From: Microvelia longipes
Lineage: Eukaryota > Arthropoda > Insecta > Hemiptera > Veliidae
Assembly: GCA_018340805.1 (NCBI GenBank)
Contig: JACMZG010001913.1
Span: 22,223,243-22,287,242, forward strand
Direction: 5' to 3'
DNA length: 64,000 bases
Part shown: piece by piece, positions 2,341 through 22,800 of the stretch
Layout of the letters: each line of letters opens with the position of its first letter
Numbering within the stretch: the first letter of the stretch is position 1
The notes under the pieces: generated by a model
The model's input: the letters and a program-made list of their open reading frames with translations, nothing else
Database searches by the model: none
Told to the model about the DNA's origin: nothing
Position numbers and translations under genes: made by a program

Positions 2341-3129
2341 TAAATATTTATCAGTAGAGAAACTCTTTCCTATATACTACTTGTTATCTCTGATTTTAGT
2401 GAGTTTTTGTAAATAATAATAATGTAAAGCAAAAATTCAGATTGTAACAAATAATTTTAGAGTCAGATACTAATATTTTAGAGTTAAGAATCGATACTTA
2501 TAATACACCTTGATGCTATGTTTGTAATATGCTCATCTAGAATTCAGATTAATGTTCCTGAAAATAGCCTTTTAAGTTTATACTTGATTGGCTGTGACAT
2601 AAACTTTCTAGAAAGTCTATTAGCGCGTATAATTCTCTAATAAAACCTGTTGGATTTCTTTAAGGTATTACTTAATATTTATTAGATGTATGCCTTAAGT
2701 TTCTTTGGTAGTGAAAATGTATTCACCGCCCACGAAACCTTTTACTTTGACAAAATCTTAATCCCTTATTCTATTAATATTTCTATTTGTACGAGGTGAA
2801 TCCAAACCAATATAGTTATGTATTCTCTTTAATCCGTTCTCTAGTTACCGAGTTAATTGCATATACAATGAAGTCTAATGTTTAATCATTGCTCGTTGAA
2901 TATGTTAAAAATAAGGCTCTATGACACAGATAATATGGCAACAGATAACTATGGTAAGATTTCCAACTTCCCTCTTCTTCTACCTTTGACAGACTACTAG
3001 TGCTGGTCCCCGAAAATAGCAGCGAATGATACTCTTTCCTCCTTTTTACAAATCTTTACTTGATATTATGGAAACTGGCACATATTAGCTCTTTGAAATG
3101 TGTTGGGGTATTACAAAACGGAACACTGT

Positions 3130-3430: not shown

Positions 3431-3833
3431 AAAAAGCAGGAATCAAAATGTATATAAATGAAATTATCTCTTGCTTTGTAGTTTAAAATGTCTTTTTTCC
3501 AACTTCCATGTTGCGTAATCATGTAACCAATTAAATTTTTCTCCGTGCGTAGTTTTCGAGAAATTGATATATGACTTCCTCAGATCCAACAAGGCCAATA
3601 ATATTTTAAAGATTTGGGTTGGGCAGAGAAGTTATCTTGGGTAAGATAGGTTAGAATTTGATCTACTTGCCCATTTCGAACTGCTTTAGACGTACTTATG
3701 GTTTGAGATGGATAGTGCCATCCTATGTTAAAACTCTCATATGTCAGCAAGTGATTGCTACTACTAACTAGTGTGTCAGAAAGATGTATTTTTATTAATG
3801 TCCTCTAACAACACTTGTATATTGATGTTCTAG

Positions 3834-4006
3834 GTGTTAGAATGCTAGACGGAGTAGTTAATGACGCTGTAGAAGCACGAGCACTGTCTCTGAATCCAGA
3901 TCATATAGATATCTATTCCGCTAGCTGGGGTCCTGAAGATGATGGTAAAACAGTTGATGGTCCTGGACCATTAGCCACCAGGGCTTTTCTCAACGGAATC
4001 ACATAT
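3834..4006 (+). CDS. Fur2: Furin exon a: catalytic domain, DGKTVDGP segment
   Basis: Starts after TTCTAG and completes a split Gly codon (phase 1). It encodes GVRMLDG, the block [18 protein letters not shown] and AFLNGITY, the signature stretch between the catalytic His and oxyanion Asn of kexin-like convertases. It ends in phase 0 at a GTAAGT donor. The preceding exon, with the His region, is not found in the 3.8 kb to the left. Confidence 0.97.
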
Positions 4007-6208
4007 GTAAGTTGTTTTCCAAAAACAATTGTAAACTTATTCGGCTAGATGGATTATCGAAGTTCGTTTAGTATTTGAGTTAATTTATAAATTTAATCTT
4101 TGGTTTTTTAATTCTCATTTTTTTAAATAATAGTCAACTTTTAAATGTGTTAACTTTTGAAAGGCCTAAAGATAAATTGAAGTACAGTCCACAACTTATA
4201 TAGAAGTCATAACTAAATTGTATATTCACAAGGAATGACTAATGAAAGGTCGGTCACATTTTTAGTTTAAGATGGCCATAGTTATTTATTGAGTAGACAT
4301 TATTTTAGGGTATCTTAGCGGTAAAGCCAATAGTAAAGTCCTATCATTGATAAAATACTTATAATTTTATTGTTCCTCGACTCTGGGAAAATCAACTGAT
4401 ATTCTTTCATTTATAGGATTGTGATAATTTTAGTAAGCTAGGTCTCTCAGAGAGTCTACTGATATTCTGTCATTAACAGGATTGTGATAATTTTAGTAAG
4501 CTTTGTCTCTGAGAAAGTCTACTGATATTCTGTCATTAACAGGATTGTGATCATTTTAGTAAGCTTTGTCTCTGAGAAAGTCTACTGATATTCTGTCATT
4601 AACAGGATTGTGATCATTTTAGTAAGCTTTGTCTCTGAGAAAGTCTACTGATATTCAGTCATTAATAGGTTATTCAATCTTTTAGATCCTGGTAAGTATG
4701 TTGTCTATAAAGGGCTAGAAATGTGATCAAACCATAAACCATGTATTAATTCAATAGTTCGACCTATAAAAAAAAAAATCATGTGTTTCAGAAAAGGCAA
4801 ACAAAATATTCATGGTTTTCACAAATCAATGTGTCAAGAGAGACCGAACATCGTTCGGTCTCTCTTGACATTCACTGTATTAGAAAATGTTAATTAAAAC
4901 AGAGTCTCCGCGAACATTGTGTCTCACAACGTTATCTAACTACTTATAGGTTTTGGAAAGGTTAACTCATAGATAAACAATATTAACACGGATGGTTCAG
5001 TTAAAAAATACGGGCCTTCGGCCCGTAGCCGCTACGCGGCGTCGGCCCGCCGGGCCGCTTCGCGGCCCGGGGGCCTCCCAGTGGCCGCTTCGCGGCCACA
5101 TTGTTGTTGTTTTGTATTATCTATGGCTTCATTATCGTTTCTTGGTTACATGGCATTTTTGCCACGTATTTAGCGAATTTCACAGACTCCGTTTCACAGG
5201 CCCGCTTCGCGGCCTGAGAGGCTTTCTCCAAATTTGATTTTATTAATCCTCTATTATTAATAGTAAGCAATAAATATTACAGTTAACAAGCAATATAAGA
5301 AATAATAAAGTATATTTAAATACATAACTAATACGTTTTTTATAGAGGTAATATAGAATACAAGGAAAAAATCCACACGTTGCAACTGTTGAAGTAACCT
5401 TGTATAAAGAGTAAGAAAAGATTATAGTTTCATCTTTCATCAGCTTTAGTTATCGTCCACTATACAAAAGGGTATAAACTCTTACTTACATTTATGATTG
5501 TTTATAGAATTTAAAGAAAGATGTCAAATTTTTTTTTGTAAACAAATTGTTTATTTGAGTAAAATCTTAAGGTTGAAAAAAATTTATTCATGATTATTTA
5601 AAATAAAAATACCATTTGCGTCACTTAGGATTGTCCGATTGAGCTGAAAACTGGTCGCAATTCGTTTTTAGAATAACTTCGACCATATAAAGACTACTTC
5701 AATGTTCTTCCTCTTTACGGGTCTGCTTAGCTCGGCGTGGTTCAGTGGAAGCCATTTTTGCCCTGTCTCTCTGGGATAGTAGGCTTACCATGATGGAGCA
5801 AGAGGTAGAGGTCTCTCTTTTATACTATATCCCCACCCCTAACACTACTGAACCCAACAAATATCGTACGAGTCTTTGACCTAGACGTATACATATATAC
5901 AAGATTATATATATATGTATACCGATTGCGCCATTTGTGATGGTTTCGATTGAGCTGAAATTTGTCTTAATCGATTCAAGCTAGCCGTCTACCTAAATAC
6001 TAGATACCTTGTTTTAAAGCCATTTCAAGTTTCAAAAAAATTTTTTTTCATGACGTCATAACTTTGGTTGATGACGTCATAATGTTTTATAAACAATAGG
6101 CCTCGTAAGGCTCCTCAACATCTCGCGATTTGCAAAGTTTCGTTTCAATTTGAGAACGCCTTCGAGAGTTATCGTTCGCCATACGAAAGGGTAGAAACTC
6201 TTACATAC

Positions 6209-6273
<65 letters not shown>

Positions 6274-9200
6274 TATATAAACTTTTTTCGGACATATATT
6301 TTTGTTATCAGGAAGCCAATAGGAACCGATTCCGCTCACTCCCACCCTCAACTTCCGTCATCCGAACAACCTCATAAGCGTCATTTTCATTATGAAAATT
6401 CGCTAAAAACCTAAGACGAAATGCAGGAGGCTCACAGGCTCAAGTAGCACACTCTAGTGATGGAAGAGTGATACTGTCAGATATTTTTATTAATCAAACA
6501 ACGAGCTGTTTTGAGTAATAAAGCCATTCCATTCGCTACTCAGCGCTAAAATGATGAGAAGACGATGGACTAGTTCCCAAATAAGCTCTATAAGAATTCC
6601 GTAATGTGATAATTGTGATTTCTTACTCTTTAATCCCATACCGTCCCCCCTGGACTCAAACCTCTAATGTCAGTTTCATTGTTTGTGTTTGACTTTCCTT
6701 AACTTATCCGATTGTACTACTAACCCGAGAAATCTTATTTAGGTAGCAAATTTGAACCTTTAGTCTGTAACACTCAAAATGAGTTATTGTTATTTTTTAA
6801 TTCCCTGAGTTATTGTTAATTATTGTTATTGTTAGTAGGGGCAAAAGGGGCATTCTGGAGCCGCCTCCTCCACCGCCTCCTCCTCCTCCTCCACCTCCTC
6901 CTCCTCCTCCTCCACCTCCTCCTCCTCCTCCAACCACCTCCTCCTCCTCCTCAACCATTTCTTTATAGTTTTATATCCCCCCCCCCCCTCTTTTGCTTTG
7001 CATAGTGTAATAACAGTAACATTAAATAGCTTTGCATAAAAAATTGGCCCCCACCATATAGGTAGAAGCAGGATGATTTTAGGTTTGAAGTAGTAGACCA
7101 CCCTAGATAAGTGTCTCTCTTAGTAAAAAGCCTTCCCACCACGTCAAGGTGGAGACACATCGGAAAGGTGTACAGTGCCCCGTCCTCGCACTGTACTATG
7201 GCGACCATCCTCTTTAAAAAAATATCGCCTCTATATATTTTTTTGTATTTTTTATATTTTTAATTTTTTTTTTGTATTTTTTATATTTTTATTTTTAATA
7301 TTTTTTTGTATTTTTATATATATTTTTTTTTTCTAACGTATTTACAATTACACTTACATCTCGTTAGCGCCATATAGGTTTACGGGACGCTATGCCACGC
7401 CAGTGACCTTAAAGATGGAATATTGCGGTTTACGGGACGCTATGCCACGCCAGGACCCTCTATCGGTTTACGGGACGCCATGCCACGCCAGGGACCCAAT
7501 TATGGCACGCTTCGCCATACTAGAGTTCCATCTCGTATTTGCGGCAGCTGCTGAGACATGAGTGTAAGGCTATTTAACATATGATTAAACTCTAAGAATA
7601 AACTCGAAAATAAATCCCACTCTGGTTTTTTTAAAACAACAAATATTTTATCTTCTTCTTTCGAACAAATCGGACGAATAATTACTTGACGTCCGTGAAA
7701 TTTAGGATTAACCAATATTACTTTTATTAAACCAAATTTTCGATCAAGTTGTACATCTTCTTTACTACGTTTTACAAAATAATTATCAATTTCATTTTTC
7801 GCGGATCTCAACAACTCAAAATCGGACATGTGAATGTTTACACTTCTTTTACCATGTTCTAATCTCAAGAAGCTACACCTTAACTAAACAAACTAATACC
7901 TTTTTACCGTCACTTAGATGGTAAATAGTCGACATCTTGCGCAATACTGATTTATTATTGCTTGGCTTTCTTTATTTATATATCCCCCCCCCCTCATCGA
8001 CCAGACATGTCTATTCATGTCATTTTATGCACAATGCTAGTCAGGGGGTTGTACTGAACTAATCTATCGTGTAACAATAGACAGTACGCGGTAGTATTTG
8101 CCGGGAAATCTTTTTCAGATTCAAATTCTAATCTCACATCTACCGGACCCTTTTTGATAGACTCTGATTGTTTTCGAACAATCAATGATTACAACAGGAC
8201 ATTATTCTTAAAATCTGTAAAGGATACGTACGGTAGACTCTGATAATGTTGTAGTACGACGTTTGAAACGCCGCGTACATGTGGTATAATAAAGCAAATT
8301 TATTTTGGGTGAATTTTAAATTTAAATCATCGTAGGGGAACACTCGTGAATTGAGATAAAGCTTGACATTTGTCAAGTCGCAGTGATCGAAACAACTGGA
8401 TGCCTTATCAATGACGTTATTTCTACCCTTTTGAAAGGCTAAAATTAAAAATCGCGGTTTCTCGAGTTGAGTCGAAGTTTTAATCGACCATACTTGACGG
8501 TTTGACGTAGGTAATAGCGGATACTCGTGCATATCCCACGCTCGGAAATGGAGAGAAATTATTTTTTCTGTTTTTAAATAATTAATTAAATTTAGTTTCT
8601 GAACTTCGTTAACCGAAACGTAGGGTATTTTCCAACAAAGCGATAGCAGTTCATTTTAACTTTCTCGCGAACTTTCTGCCCGTGCATCCGTATCGACATA
8701 TGGAACATGCTGTACAAAACAATTTGAATCGTTTCTCGCTCTTTCCAAAATTAGCTCTTGCTTTACGTTTGTCAAAACTTTTCGGTAATCTTTCGCGAAT
8801 CCGAGTAACGAGGATAAAGGTAGACTGACGTGTACCGGGTGGATGCATTCTTCTGAACTTCATTGAAGGGTATTGTCCATCCCATATTTGTTAGGGAATA
8901 CGATATAGGTGCGTGAGATGCAATCCCTTTTAGAGTCGAAGTCATTCCCGGGGTTTCTGACTTTATCAATCCTCGATCACAAAATTTCTACCGGATCTCG
9001 TCGAATAAAAACGGGAATGCGTTGTTGATGAGTCTGTGCTTCGCCGGTGCCGTTTTTCCTCCTTCTTTTAAAAATGATAGTTCCAAATATATAAAACTTT
9101 CACTCGGAAAGCGTATAAATGTCTTGGGAGTTGTACCGGAATCCGTATCTCTTCTCCGGCGTCTATCTTTGAGTTTGCGTACGGATAGTGAGTATGATAC

Positions 9201-12200
9201 TCTAGACTCTCTATAGATTCATCATATTCAGGGTGTTCACTTAAATTTAAACATCTCAACCATTTTTGGCTCTTTATGTCTTTGTTACTTACACATCATC
9301 AATAGGTTCATCCTCCTCATCATCTTCTTCATCCTCCTTCCTCATCGTCTTCTTCTTCTTCTTATTCTTTTCTATCCTTTTCCGATCCCCACATACTGTC
9401 TCGCTAGAGTTATTATAGTTTTCAATTGACTCATCATGTTTTACATGCAATGGCGTCCTTGTAGAATCCCCAACTCTGAACCATCCTCGCGTTTACCTCC
9501 TCACAGTGTTTACTCGTTGGGTGTCGAAGTAAATTCTTTTTTGTATAAACTTTTTACAGCAGTCTGGACAACTAAATGTCAAGTTTTCAATCTCTTCTTG
9601 TAGAGGCTCGAATCACGTATCTTGGGAGAACATCTCTGCTCGGTGTCTGGCTCAATACTAAAGTTGGAGCTCCACTAGCTCTCTAAATATATATATATAT
9701 ATATACAAACGAAAGCTAAAACACCGCTGAAGCGGCTTCAACAACTCCAGTTAGACCCATATTAGCTGCAACACAACTCCAAATCGGCTCGTATAGGCTC
9801 TGCGATAGTTCATATTGGCTCCACATCGGCTCTAAATCCATATAGGCTCCACATGGCTCATATATGCTCCAAATGGCTCATACTCGGCTTCTAAATAGCT
9901 CGTAATAGGCTCCAAAGTGGCTCTTAATTGGCTCATATAGGCTCCCTACTCGCCAAATGGCTCATATAGGCTCCTACTCGGCTCCAAATGGCTCATATAG
10001 GCTCCACTCTGGCTCCAAATGGCTCATATTGGCTCCACTCCGGCTCTAAATGGCTCCACTTCGGCTCTTAATGGCTCATATAGGCTCCACTCCGGCTCTA
10101 AATGGCTCATATTGGCTCCACTCCGGCTCTAAATGGCTCCACTCCGGCTCATAATGGCTCATATAGGCTCTGCGATAGCTCATATAGGCTCCACACCGGC
10201 TCTATAATGGGCTCATATAGGCTCCAAGCGGCTCTAAATGGTTTAATAGGCCCTACTTGGCTCATAAGGCTCCAACATGGCTCTAAATGGCTCATATAGG
10301 CTCAACATGGCTCCAAATTGGCTCATATAGGCTCCAAAGCGACTCTAAATGGCTCATATCGGCTCCAACAAGATGAATATATAAGTTTATGATGTAAGGG
10401 GATATGGTCAGTTGTATCTCGGCTTCCGTGCATTCAAGATGCCTTCTACCGCTATTATAGATATTCAAGGGTTTGTAGATAATGAGGGGCAAGTCATCGT
10501 TAAAGAGCTTGCATGTTTGGACCTGGAGACGAAATCGTCTTCGAGCTGGTTATTTTTTTACACCTGCAAATTACATTCAAGATTCTAAATCTATGAAAAC
10601 TAATTCTTGGCTTACATTAAATTTTCACGGAATAAACTGGGATGACGGTGATGTTGAGTACGAGCGATTGTATTTTGTTATTTAACTTTTATCTAATCGA
10701 TACACACACTTTGTCGTTAAAGGTAAAGTTCGTTTATTGAAAAAATACTTGCCAAATAATTGCGTCATTATAGATTTACTTGCGATAGAATGCCCCAAAA
10801 TTAGTTCATTGAGTTATAGCTGGAGGCCCTGCCTTCTTCATAAGCACAATAAAAAATTTGCTTGCTCTCAGGCTCGAGTGTGGAGTTTGTATAAATGGCT
10901 CGTAAACGGACCTGCACTCGGTTTGACCATAAATTTACTACCGGTTTCATGTGTAGCCACGTGAGTTTTATTTCAGGGGATTTATTTTCGAGTTTATTCT
11001 TAGAGTTTAATCATATGTTAAATAGCCTTACACTCAGTCTCAGCAGCTGCCGCAAATACGAGATGGAACTCTAGTATGGCGAAGCGTGCCATAATTGGGT
11101 CCCTGGCGTGGCATGGCGTCCCGTAAACCCATAGAGGGTCCCTGCGTGGCATAGCGACCCGTAAACCCTCAGAGCGGTCCCTGGCGTGGGCATAGCGTCC
11201 CGTAAACCGCAATATTCCATCTTTTAAGGTCACTGGCGTGGCATAGCGTCCCGTAAACCTATATGGCGCTAACGAGATGTAAGTGTAATTGTAAATACGT
11301 TAGAAAAAAAATAAAAAAACAAAAAAATAATAAAAATAAAAATATAAAAAATACAAAAAAAATTAAAAATATAAAAAACAAAAAATATATAGAGGCGATA
11401 TTTTTTTAAAGAGGACGGTCGCCATAGTTACAGTGCGAGGACGGGGCACTGTACACCTTCCCGATGTGTCTCCACCTTGACGTGGTGGGAAGGCTTTTTA
11501 CTAAGAGAGACACTTATCTAGGGTGGTCTACTACTTCACACCTAAAAATCATCCTGCTTCTACCTATATGGTGGGGGCCAATTTTTTATGCAAAGCATAT
11601 TTAATGTTACTGTTATTACACTATGCAAAGCAAAAGAGGGGGGGGGATATAAACTATAAAGAAATGGTTGAGGAGGAGGAGGAGGTGGAGGAGGAGGAGG
11701 AGGAGGAGGAGGTGGAGGAGGCAGTGGAGGAGGCAGTGGAGGAGGCGGCTCCAGAATGCCCCTTTTGCCCCTACTATTGTTCCCCAAGTTTTGGAAAACA
11801 AATATACATACTTGTTTATTGTCATATAATATTATAATATAATAGACAATATTATTTGTAACGTAGTACAAATAACAATACAATAATATTATTACAATAT
11901 TATTTTATTATTTGTATTTTTTATTTTTTTATTATTAGCGACTGTTTGTATTAAAAAAAACTACAGCACAATGTAGTAGAGATTGTGCTGTAGATTCATT
12001 CGACTCTGGGAAAATCAACTGATTTTCTGTCATTAATTTAAAGGATTGTAATCAATTTAGTAAGAAATGAGGTTTCATAGTCCAGGTTATGAAGTGTCGA
12101 TAGATATAGAATATATAGATATAGAATATAGATATAGAATATCGACACTATCGATGAAGTGTCGATACAAACGAATATTGAGACCAAGGTAAAGTGTCAA

Positions 12201-19873: not shown

Positions 19874-22800
19874 ATTCATTATATTTTTTAAAGAAGGTTA
19901 TTTGTTTTTAAATTAAATTTAAGTTGAAGCATGAATTAAACACCTTGGCTGACTTTAACTTGCCCTAAATTGAGTAAGTCAAGTAGCCTTCCGCTTCTAG
20001 TCAATTTATTTATGGAATAGTGTAATTAACTTAAGTATGTCTGCTACTTTATACTAACTTTGTTTTGCTAGGTCGAAGCCCTGGTATTTAGAAGAATGCT
20101 CGTCAACAATAGCGACCACTTATAGCAGCGGCACTCTTGGCAGAGATAAGAGTGTTGCTTCCGTCGATATGGACCCAAAATTGAGGGAAGAAAATTTATG
20201 TACAACCGAACACACTGGTAAATATTTTTACTATTTTTATTTCATGAAAATGTATAGATTATTGATGTCTATTTCCATATTCAGATTATTTTTGCAAATC
20301 TCTATTAGACTAGAGGATCTCTATTAGATCCTAGATTTGTCCTAGCTTCTCCTTGTCTTAGTATTATTGAGATACATTTTTTGAAATATCTTCTAGGTTA
20401 CACCGTGGTTGTTCCAAGCTTCCTCCTAAACTTCTTTCTTCTAGCGATTCATAAATTATCCTTAGAAACAATCTCAATTCAGGGCTTAAACTTAAGTGTA
20501 CTTTCAAATTTGATATTTGTCATATCTTTGATCTAAAATATCTGCGGTGACATAGCATGGTTTCTTATGCCGTAGGTGTAAAGACAAAGTGATGTCTTTG
20601 TCTTTACTTTGTATTCGGTTCAGGTGTTTTTAGAACCTTCTGAGCGGTTTTACTATTCATTGCGTACGTGCTACTACAACTATTCATTAGTTCGTTATGA
20701 TTGTAGTTTTTGTGTATTTATGCTAAAAATTTAAAACTAGATGCAAAAATTAATCTTCAGGTCTAATTCTACTCTCCAGAAGACAAAACGATTGTCAAGC
20801 TTTATCTTACTCCCAGAATTTGTTTAATTTGTATCAATGAACAATACGATTTAAAATCAACTCTATCGACCACAATTTTTAAATTCCGTAGTTGAAATTT
20901 ACCATGAGTGGATCCTTTATGTAATTAACGATTATACAAAGTTTTTTCGAATCAGTTGTGTTAAGCAGTTTCGAGCAAGTTCAATACGTGGATGGATGAG
21001 CACTAGAAAAAAAATTGGAATGGATTGTTTCATTTTCGAAAGACGAGCGAAGGGAGTCCCAAGACATACCTCAATATGAATGCGAGTCCAAAGTAGTGGG
21101 AATGAGCGTAGAAATCCAATAGAGTAAAGAAAATTTCCAAGGCTTGTTTTTTTTTGTTTCTTGGTTAGTACTTATTTTAAAATAATTTTGAATTTCTTTG
21201 CAATGTTTGTTATTTTTAGGGACTAGTGCCAGTGCCCCTATAGCAGCCGGAATGTGTGCATTAGCATTAGAAGCCAATCCAAGTCTGACATGGAGAGATA
21301 TGCAGCATATTGTCGTCATGTCTGCCAATCCAAGGCCTCTTAGTAAAGAGCCAGGTTGGATCACTAACGGAGCTAGTAGAAAAGGTAAGCAAGCCTTTTC
21401 AAATTTTCGGGTTATCTGATAATATAGCAATAACTTGCTATATTATCAATATAATTATATTATCAATTAATTATTATTTAGCAATGCTAAATAATAATTA
21501 ATATTGATGAAACATAGCTTTGCATTTAGAGAATTTTTAACTTTGTAAGTTTTTCAATAGTTGATAGCAAAATTGATGCACTAGATGAATTAACTTAAGT
21601 TAATGAAGTTTAAAGGTAAAATGATTATAATATTTAAAATAATTGAGACCAAACACAATCCTAATATTTTATATTATGATATGAGATATATTATATGCTA
21701 ATATATTTATGTTTTGCTCTGAAAAGAAATGTATCATTTAAAAAGGTCTTATTTAAAATTCATCTACTTTTTGATAGCAATTCAATAACTGCATTGGTTA
21801 CAGTAAAACCACCAGGAAAATCTGTAAACAGACAGATCAGCGGACTCAAGGTAACCAATGAATCTGTATACAAACAATATTAGTTAAGTTTGCCTCTTTT
21901 CCAAACTTAAGTGATATGGATGAACAATATTGGATTAATTCTTTTATAAATATATTTTAATGAATATATGTATCTGATAGTATTTTTTTTACTCTCCAGC
22001 CCTATTGTATTTGCTGTCACTCATGTTGTTTATGTTTTGTTACCCTTCAGTGTAGTTGTATTCCTGTAATCCATTTGTTTATTTTGTTTACCTTCAATGC
22101 ATTTATTTGCTGTCACTCATGGTTTTGTTTGTTTTCCCTTAGTGAATTGTATTTCTGTAATCCATTTTTTATGTTTTGTTTACCTCAGTGCAATTTATTT
22201 CCTGTTATCCATTTCGTTATGTTTTGTTTACCTTCATGCAATTGTATTCCTGTAATCCATTTTGTTTATGTTTTGTTTACCCTTCAGTGCAATTGTATTT
22301 CCTGTAATCCATTTTTTGTTGTTTTGTTTACTTTACCTCAGTGCAATTGTATTCCTGTAATCATTTTGTTATGTTTGTTAAATTGTATTTCCTGCAATTG
22401 TTTATGTTTGTTTACTTCAGTCCAATTGTATATCCTGTAATCATTTTGTTTACCTTCAGTCCAATTGATTTCTGTAATCTATTTTGTTATGTTTTGTTAC
22501 CTCAGTGCAATGAATTTCCTGTAATCCATTTTGTTTATGTTTTGTTTACCCTGTAGTTCTATTGTCTTTTTCATTTTTATCGCCCATTTAATATTTGATT
22601 AAATTTTTGTTGCAGTTAATCACAAATTTGGGTTTGGTCTTATGGATGGTAATAACATGGTTACATTAGCTGAACAATGGACTAATGTGCCTGAGCAGCA
22701 TGTTTGCAAAACCCATATAGCTGTTGAAGAAAGGTTAGTTTACTTTTCATTGCTTTGAGAATGAATAAAAACAATAGATGTAAGATTTTGTTCTCTAAAG

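Follow-up and report, generated by a model that had tools for sequence, protein, structure and literature searches.

A Short, Capsid-Bearing Class of Polinton-Type Elements in Microvelia longipes and Its Probable Dependence on Larger Relatives

Introduction

The Polintons, or Mavericks, are described with a characteristic gene set and a size of 15–20 kb (PMC4028283), and those of vertebrates with the end motifs (AG)3 and (AGT)2 and with 6-bp duplications (PMC8097293). The latter account also states that Polinton particles have not been observed. The element dealt with here lies in a stretch of 64,000 nucleotides from Microvelia longipes (contig JACMZG010001913.1, positions 22,223,243 to 22,287,242), referred to as the window, in whose positions the coordinates of the element are given. 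This element and its short copies (the mini elements) have the AG/CT termini, the 6-bp duplication, the long terminal inverted repeats (TIRs) and the double-jelly-roll (DJR) capsid gene of a Polinton, and larger elements with the same TIR in the same genome hold open reading frames (ORFs) for a family B polymerase (PolB), an integrase and an A32-like ATPase. They differ in being about 5 kb long rather than 15–20 kb (two larger relatives in this genome measure 11.1 and 12.6 kb), in the absence of any PolB or integrase found in or near them, in having both ends from one end of a larger element, and in carrying a private ORF, named DIQGF for a motif in it, as well as a zinc-finger extension of the capsid gene. 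As a protein-primed PolB and an RVE integrase were found in a larger relative but not in the mini, the latter counts as non-autonomous and Polinton-derived, and not as a complete Polinton.

Non-autonomous DNA transposons are defined in general terms as keeping the cis-acting ends and lacking the enzymes (PMC6431247). The mini elements resemble them in both respects, a relative with the enzymes and the same ends being present in this genome, but they carry genes with the signature of purifying selection. They also recall the virophages, such as Sputnik and mavirus, and the satellite viruses, which are likewise small and capsid-encoding, are thought to depend on a helper, and have a capsid of the same fold class. 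The mini has roughly a quarter of the length of a virophage genome, with a single capsid gene seen in it, and its presumed helper would be a family member among the Polintons instead of a giant virus. In the literature searched, mostly by title and abstract and with subscription journals largely outside it, no short capsid-bearing class of Polintons was described.

What was found is a multicopy class of elements of about 5 kb that have the ends and duplications of a Polinton and carry a private ORF as well as a DJR capsid gene. Within the reach of the searches, neither a polymerase nor an integrase turned up in these elements or close to them. The window insertion is probably a copy from a helper-dependent, capsid-bearing lineage of Polinton satellites.

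A Multicopy Class of Short Elements

The genome searched was the window's own, with 664.6 Mb in 1,470 contigs. The left arm of the element (positions 6834-11775, with AG/CT termini) gave 504 candidates, and the 40 scored yielded 42 matches, the window's own two arms included. Its 18-base terminus, with at most two mismatches, occurred 94 times in the forward and 88 times in the reverse direction, against 3 and 0 times for the reversed control pattern. Because other copies exist, a chance origin of the features of the window element is excluded. Among the 100 terminus places listed 28 neighbouring plus/minus pairs were separated by less than 25 kb. Their lengths range between 2.0 and 22.6 kb, and the two longest of these probably hold more than one insertion.

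Besides the window, 29 loci (L009 to L037) were fetched and compared. The interior of the window element, with a minisatellite of varying length, is common to 17 of them; L016 and L031 match it only up to about position 3,035 of 3,330, and the left end of L031 is a gap of Ns. Rearranged or shortened mini forms are present at four loci (L015, L027, L034 and L036), and seven (L018, L019, L020, L024, L028, L029 and L030) run from the capsid gene into the sequence of a larger element. The remaining locus, L022, was assigned to neither class, its interior being a gap of Ns; it was at first counted as larger and was set aside before the selection counts on account of that gap and of its capsid sequence, which pairs with that of the mini L021. 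The two lie about 31 kb apart on contig C740 with near-identical capsid genes; perhaps a single mini insertion was duplicated here along with its segment, the gap concealing some of it.

Both boundaries were available for 22 copies, namely the window element, 20 mini-type loci and the palindromic L024. A perfect 6-bp duplication was present in 18 of the 22, and as all 18 are different, they represent independent insertions. The exceptions are L021, with one mismatch, L032, with four, and L016 and L017, in which the script did not place the right end cleanly. The typical bounded mini copies (n = 17, window included) measure 4,774–5,550 bp. The shortened L015 (3,119 bp, with nearly only minisatellite between its TIRs) and L036 (3,794 bp) also inserted with perfect duplications.

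Larger Relatives and the Origin of the Ends

The seven larger-type loci match the window only in the TIR and in the first 1.62–1.66 kb or so of the interior, which holds a small terminal ORF (TERM) and the capsid gene, the capsid region being 93–96% identical to that of the mini. Past the capsid gene, L019 aligns to the other six at 91–97% identity, over 4–6 kb with L018, L020, L028 and L029, about 2 kb with the palindromic L024, and about 0.9 kb with L030, which then enters a gap of Ns. Larger Polintons with the same TIR occur in this genome: L018 has ORFs with matches to family B polymerase (PF03175) and to integrase (PF00665), and L020 has one with a match to the A32-like ATPase. A further ORF in the larger elements is presumed from its motifs to be protease-like, with no Pfam match above the cut-off. 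The larger element at C521:22029-34606, bounded by terminus matches, is 12,578 bp long and has its PolB matches in an open frame of 1,301 codons, and that at C707:20539040-20550142 is 11,103 bp long by its end coordinates. Same-strand pairs of PolB matches at C518:31293303/31302704 and C564:23652259/23662481, about 9.4 and 10.2 kb apart, represent neighbouring or tandem larger elements.

At its right end, the C521 element has the PolB, with N-terminal zinc-finger-like motifs, and then about 2.4 kb that is unrelated to the mini and common to the right end of L019 (97% over 1.57 kb and 94% over 0.73 kb). The mini right end matches these two right ends only in the outer 190–205 bp or so, and the inverted repeat of L019 itself is only about 218 bp long. 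The remainder of the 799-bp right TIR of the mini is an inverted copy of the capsid-side (left) end of the larger elements, so that the mini bears the same end twice. The copy includes the last 116 nt of TERM, the 3′ end of which falls within the left TIR and is repeated in the right one at 10977-11091.

The sequence-only reading, which preceded these searches, had offered two origins for the element, an internal deletion of a Polinton or a small class that keeps its capsid gene and borrows polymerase and integrase. By the test set out in that reading, a simple internal deletion is rejected, as the same short architecture recurs at 17 of the 29 loci and the right half of the mini matches the two right ends read only in the outer 190–205 bp or so, with the extension, the GGCTC array and DIQGF not found there. 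Nor was there any match to DIQGF, the array or the extension in the larger-element pieces compared, which cover parts of those elements. The other origin fits better, since the class exists, no PolB or integrase was found near DIQGF and the genes appear to be under purifying selection; the borrowing is its probable part, as the mini elements lack the polymerase and integrase needed for copying and insertion and so would live off the larger relatives in the same genome.

Three copies are palindromes with arms that are 96–98% identical. One is of the larger type (L024:632-8843, arms about 3.64 kb, loop about 0.92 kb) and two are minis, L027:1001-6249 (arms about 2.0 kb, loop about 1.2 kb) and L034:3029-8772, which is mirrored on the other side. 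Each lies between perfect 6-bp duplications and therefore was already a palindrome when it inserted. The alignments of the L024 halves have 9 bp in common at the turn; template switching at a short repeat is expected to leave such an overlap, although the extension of an alignment can also give one of that size. The palindromic copies are likely frozen template-switch products of replication, in both classes. More such forms are suggested by the matches listed, among which DIQGF pairs face outward at four other places, one DIQGF pair faces inward, and PolB also occurs in opposed pairs.

The Capsid Gene and Its Extension

The capsid-like gene of the sequence-only reading proved to be a DJR capsid gene, with a match to PF21738 at positions 8182-8655 of the minus strand (E = 1.1e-51) that is stronger still in the capsid ORF of L019 (E = 1.4e-113). 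The protein library holds 1,421 relatives at E ≤ 0.001, the nearest named ones being from Rhodnius prolixus (58%) and Cimex lectularius (54%), a hint of a true-bug host, on which mobile elements are weak evidence. By sequence, the protein has no relative in PDB at E ≤ 1. An AlphaFold2 model of the relative P0001 (414 aa), built on 45 of the 120 relatives listed, reached a predicted local distance difference test score (pLDDT) of 87.1 and a predicted template-modelling score (pTM) of 0.87. It matches the PDB capsid proteins of PBCV-1, an iridovirus, Sputnik, Faustovirus and mavirus, with TM-scores of about 0.5–0.6 to those of PBCV-1, Sputnik and mavirus, and it also matches capsid proteins in a viral library. 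In viral contigs, 10 stretches fitted a capsid pattern and none was confirmed as a relative.

In the minis, the capsid frame extends upstream into a C2H2-like finger and an acidic stretch, the finger matching zf-C2H2 at E = 0.018, below the Pfam cut-off. When the genome was searched with the L009 frame, 10 of the 107 rows, L009 itself included, were free of stops between the extension and at least query residue 403, and four of the 10 lie in frames of 526–542 codons. The extension alone has no relative at E ≤ 0.001 among the 7,982 candidates scored. The N-terminus of PolB was considered as a possible source of the extension: the PolB of the C521 element begins with C2H2-like fingers, as judged by eye, but its N-terminus matches the extension weakly (E = 0.66 and 0.94, about 40% over 17–20 residues).

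DIQGF and the Gene Neighborhoods

DIQGF encodes about 190 amino acids and diverges from the capsid gene across the GGCTC minisatellite. Of 62 candidates from a large protein library, none was a relative at E ≤ 0.001; PDB gave none at E ≤ 10 and PHROGs none either, and the best Pfam match (E = 0.057) is below the cut-off. In the same genome, a relative with 64% identity, in a stop-free frame of 189 codons with no capsid match listed nearby, is present at C518:41491109-41491615 and may be of another lineage or kept by the host.

Three whole-genome protein searches (capsid, DIQGF and PolB) were combined to count which genes lie together, and an integrase search was added; scoring covered 96 of 483 candidates for the capsid, 150 of 344 for DIQGF, 72 of 518 for PolB and 125 of 1,361 for the integrase. 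Among those scored there were 86 capsid loci, 65 with the extension and 21 without. In the former, DIQGF lies within 6 kb at 59 loci among the matches listed and is missing at six, and none of the 65 has a PolB match within 15 kb. The 21 loci that lack the extension divide into eight with PolB, five with DIQGF among the matches listed, and eight with neither, and 12 of the 21 have an integrase match within 6 kb. From the side of DIQGF, none of the 119 loci listed has a PolB match within 15 kb and none of the 120 entries listed has an integrase match within that distance. In the window element itself, a Pfam profile search of its 10 ORF pieces gave no PolB or integrase.

Selection on the Capsid Gene and DIQGF

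The ratio of nonsynonymous to synonymous polymorphism (pN/pS) was taken for the capsid gene from 19 mini sequences (the window's included; L015, L027 and L034 left out) and from eight larger-class sequences of seven loci (both arms of L024), and for DIQGF from 21 sequences (both arms of L034), with 95% intervals by codon bootstrap. Among the minis, it came to 0.176 (0.121–0.255) for the capsid gene and 0.196 (0.126–0.310) for DIQGF, and the shifted-frame controls gave 1.21 and 1.30 for the former and 2.46 and 1.24 for the latter. Capsid variants shared by at least two minis were 18 nonsynonymous and 42 synonymous, as against 68 (nine of them stops) and 43 for singletons (Fisher p = 1.1e-4). 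For the shared mini variants that were not seen in the larger class, the counts are 13 and 18 (p = 1.0e-5 against neutrality). As judged from these sequences, purifying selection on DIQGF appears well supported, and that on the mini capsid gene supported, with a caveat about recombination with the larger elements that, as far as the searches reach, the DIQGF signal escapes.

Weighing the Explanations

Several points weigh against a capsid-bearing satellite. The pN/pS of the capsid gene is higher in the minis than in the larger class (0.064, 0.031–0.108). TERM (0.444, 0.197–1.070) and the extension (0.539, 0.298–1.151) show no clear selection, and since their shifted frames gave 0.66 and 2.00 for TERM and 0.56 and 0.79 for the extension, constraint on either is not demonstrated. 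Among the capsid variants private to the minis, the contrast of shared (13/18) with singleton (62/35) is weak (p = 0.037). The capsid genes of the two classes differ at just five near-fixed nucleotides, three synonymous and two not, and so few differences make recombination between the classes likely, which could refresh the mini capsid gene and explain its low pN/pS in part. Genes for a minor capsid protein, a protease or an ATPase were not seen in the window element, and so it could not build a full capsid by itself. The absences in the neighborhood counts hold for the part of the candidates that was scored, and the right ends of larger elements that were read are two. Finally, many copies, the window's included, are frame-shifted in the capsid gene, mostly by 1-bp indels and with few stops. 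The capsid genes of L009–L037 have up to 30 frame-shifting indels and yet 0–2 stops per copy. The single-base indels and the rarity of stops suggest errors in the assembly of repeats from indel-prone long reads rather than decay, and counts of frame-shifts in such stretches call for caution.

An ordinary non-autonomous Polinton, moved in trans by way of its ends and with the capsid gene as a passenger, would account for the many broken frames, for the insertion of the shortened L015 and L036, and for the want of a polymerase or integrase match near the DIQGF loci listed. We consider it rather unlikely, as DIQGF has its low pN/pS away from any PolB or integrase match, and the shared capsid variants private to the minis are biased to synonymous changes where a passenger should drift neutrally. 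The constraint on the capsid gene might instead be apparent only, brought in by recombination with selected larger elements, which would leave DIQGF as the sole gene of the mini's own, acting for example on the ends or on chromatin. The very few near-fixed differences between the classes, despite a pS of 7–8% inside each, agree with such an exchange. It is nonetheless improbable as the whole explanation, as the seven larger-type loci cluster in an unrooted FastTree of the capsid columns (local support 0.974), even if most inner supports there are low and L022 falls with the mini L021 (0.998). Moreover, at two of the three residues that differ near-fixedly (positions 12, 19 and 23), the mini state is derived relative to all five outgroup proteins; the third has the mini state in P0001, the nearest of the outgroups, and the larger-class state in the other four. 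Least credible, and very improbable in our view, is a mini kept by host or element because it interferes with the larger elements, by way of a dominant capsid variant that has gained a DNA-binding head. An addition of this kind to a capsid protein that is otherwise much the same could disrupt assembly or divert it, but the extension has no selection signal, and the copies are scattered over many contigs, as those of a selfish element are.

A helper-dependent satellite, the probable explanation, can be pictured as follows. In an ancestral template switch or recombination, new material, namely the zinc-finger extension, the GGCTC array and DIQGF, would have been added to one end of a larger Polinton, with its TIR, terminal ORF and capsid gene, and an inverted copy of the same end would have closed the element, so that both ends carry the signals for replication and integration. 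The protein-primed polymerase of the larger Polintons would then start at the ends of the mini and copy it as linear DNA, which the integrase of the larger Polintons would insert with the 6-bp duplication. The mini would supply its own capsid protein and the DIQGF protein, both kept by selection for self-packaging or for control of the helper, which is the least certain step. The use of a helper, the packaging and the role of DIQGF are what we infer from gene content and selection. In its most specific form, this is a capsid-encoding satellite of an endogenous animal Polinton, linear and 5 kb long, which exploits a full Polinton for polymerase and integrase, is packaged by its own capsid protein with a zinc-finger head, controls its helper through DIQGF and arose by a template switch with the same end twice, a combination that is possible and is put forward tentatively.

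If the satellite is real, a lineage devoid of enzymes with a constrained capsid gene would be indirect evidence that the capsid protein is made and useful, and Polintons would have a satellite of their own, as giant viruses have the virophages. The palindromic insertions with clean duplications also record a possible mode of replication that is linear, proceeds from the ends and involves template switching.

The Window Copy and Its Host Site

The AG...CT ends, the ATTGTT on both sides, the inverted repeats of 785 and 799 bp and the total of 4,942 bp given in the sequence-only reading were all recovered (Table 1). Ungapped blocks of the two TIR arms are 85–100% complementary, with 73–83% in an AT-rich stretch, and they differ by six substitutions in 398 compared sites, a figure good for rough dating only. 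For L021, L023, L025, L033, L036 and L037, the automatic alignment of the TIRs gave 8.7–83%, values that were distrusted and not used. Relative to the L019 ORF, the window capsid frame has 13 frame-shifting indels and one stop.

Table 1. Features of the window element and its surroundings, in window positions.
Feature	Position	Strand	Basis or remark
Left target-site duplication copy, ATTGTT	6828..6833	.	Read at the element edge
Left TIR, 785 bp, starts AGTAGGGG	6834..7618	+	Homologous to the capsid-side end of larger elements
TERM, small terminal ORF	7503..7971	-	98% match to the L017 ORF (157-codon open frame there)
DJR major capsid gene, broken in the window copy	8018..9249	-	PF21738; mapping to the window; fold of the relative P0001
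Mini-specific zinc-finger/acidic extension	9250..9651	-	Continuous with the capsid frame where a copy is unbroken
GGCTC-type minisatellite between divergent genes	9754..10371, edges approximate	.	Repeat families in the window; length varies by copy
DIQGF, private ORF, frame-shifted in the window copy	10385..10961	+	96% match to the L009 ORF (192-codon open frame there)
Right TIR, 799 bp, ends CCCCTACT	10977..11775	-	Inverted repeat of the left arm
Right target-site duplication copy, ATTGTT	11776..11781	.	Read at the element edge
Upstream host exon, subtilase domain	3809..4030	+	PF00082, E = 1.4e-4, at its cut-off of 21.8 bits; motifs GVRMLDG and SWGPEDDG
Downstream host exon, subtilase domain with GTSASAP	21192..21380	+	PF00082, E = 1.8e-10

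Elsewhere in the window, an open frame of 142 codons on the minus strand (136-564), with no Pfam match at E ≤ 0.01, may be the terminal part of a retroelement and has a motif that resembles GIY-YIG. The placement of the element in a furin intron, also put forward in the sequence-only reading, holds: plus-strand exons of the subtilase family flank it, so that the intron around it belongs to a proprotein convertase of the furin type, the name furin being presumed from the matched motifs.

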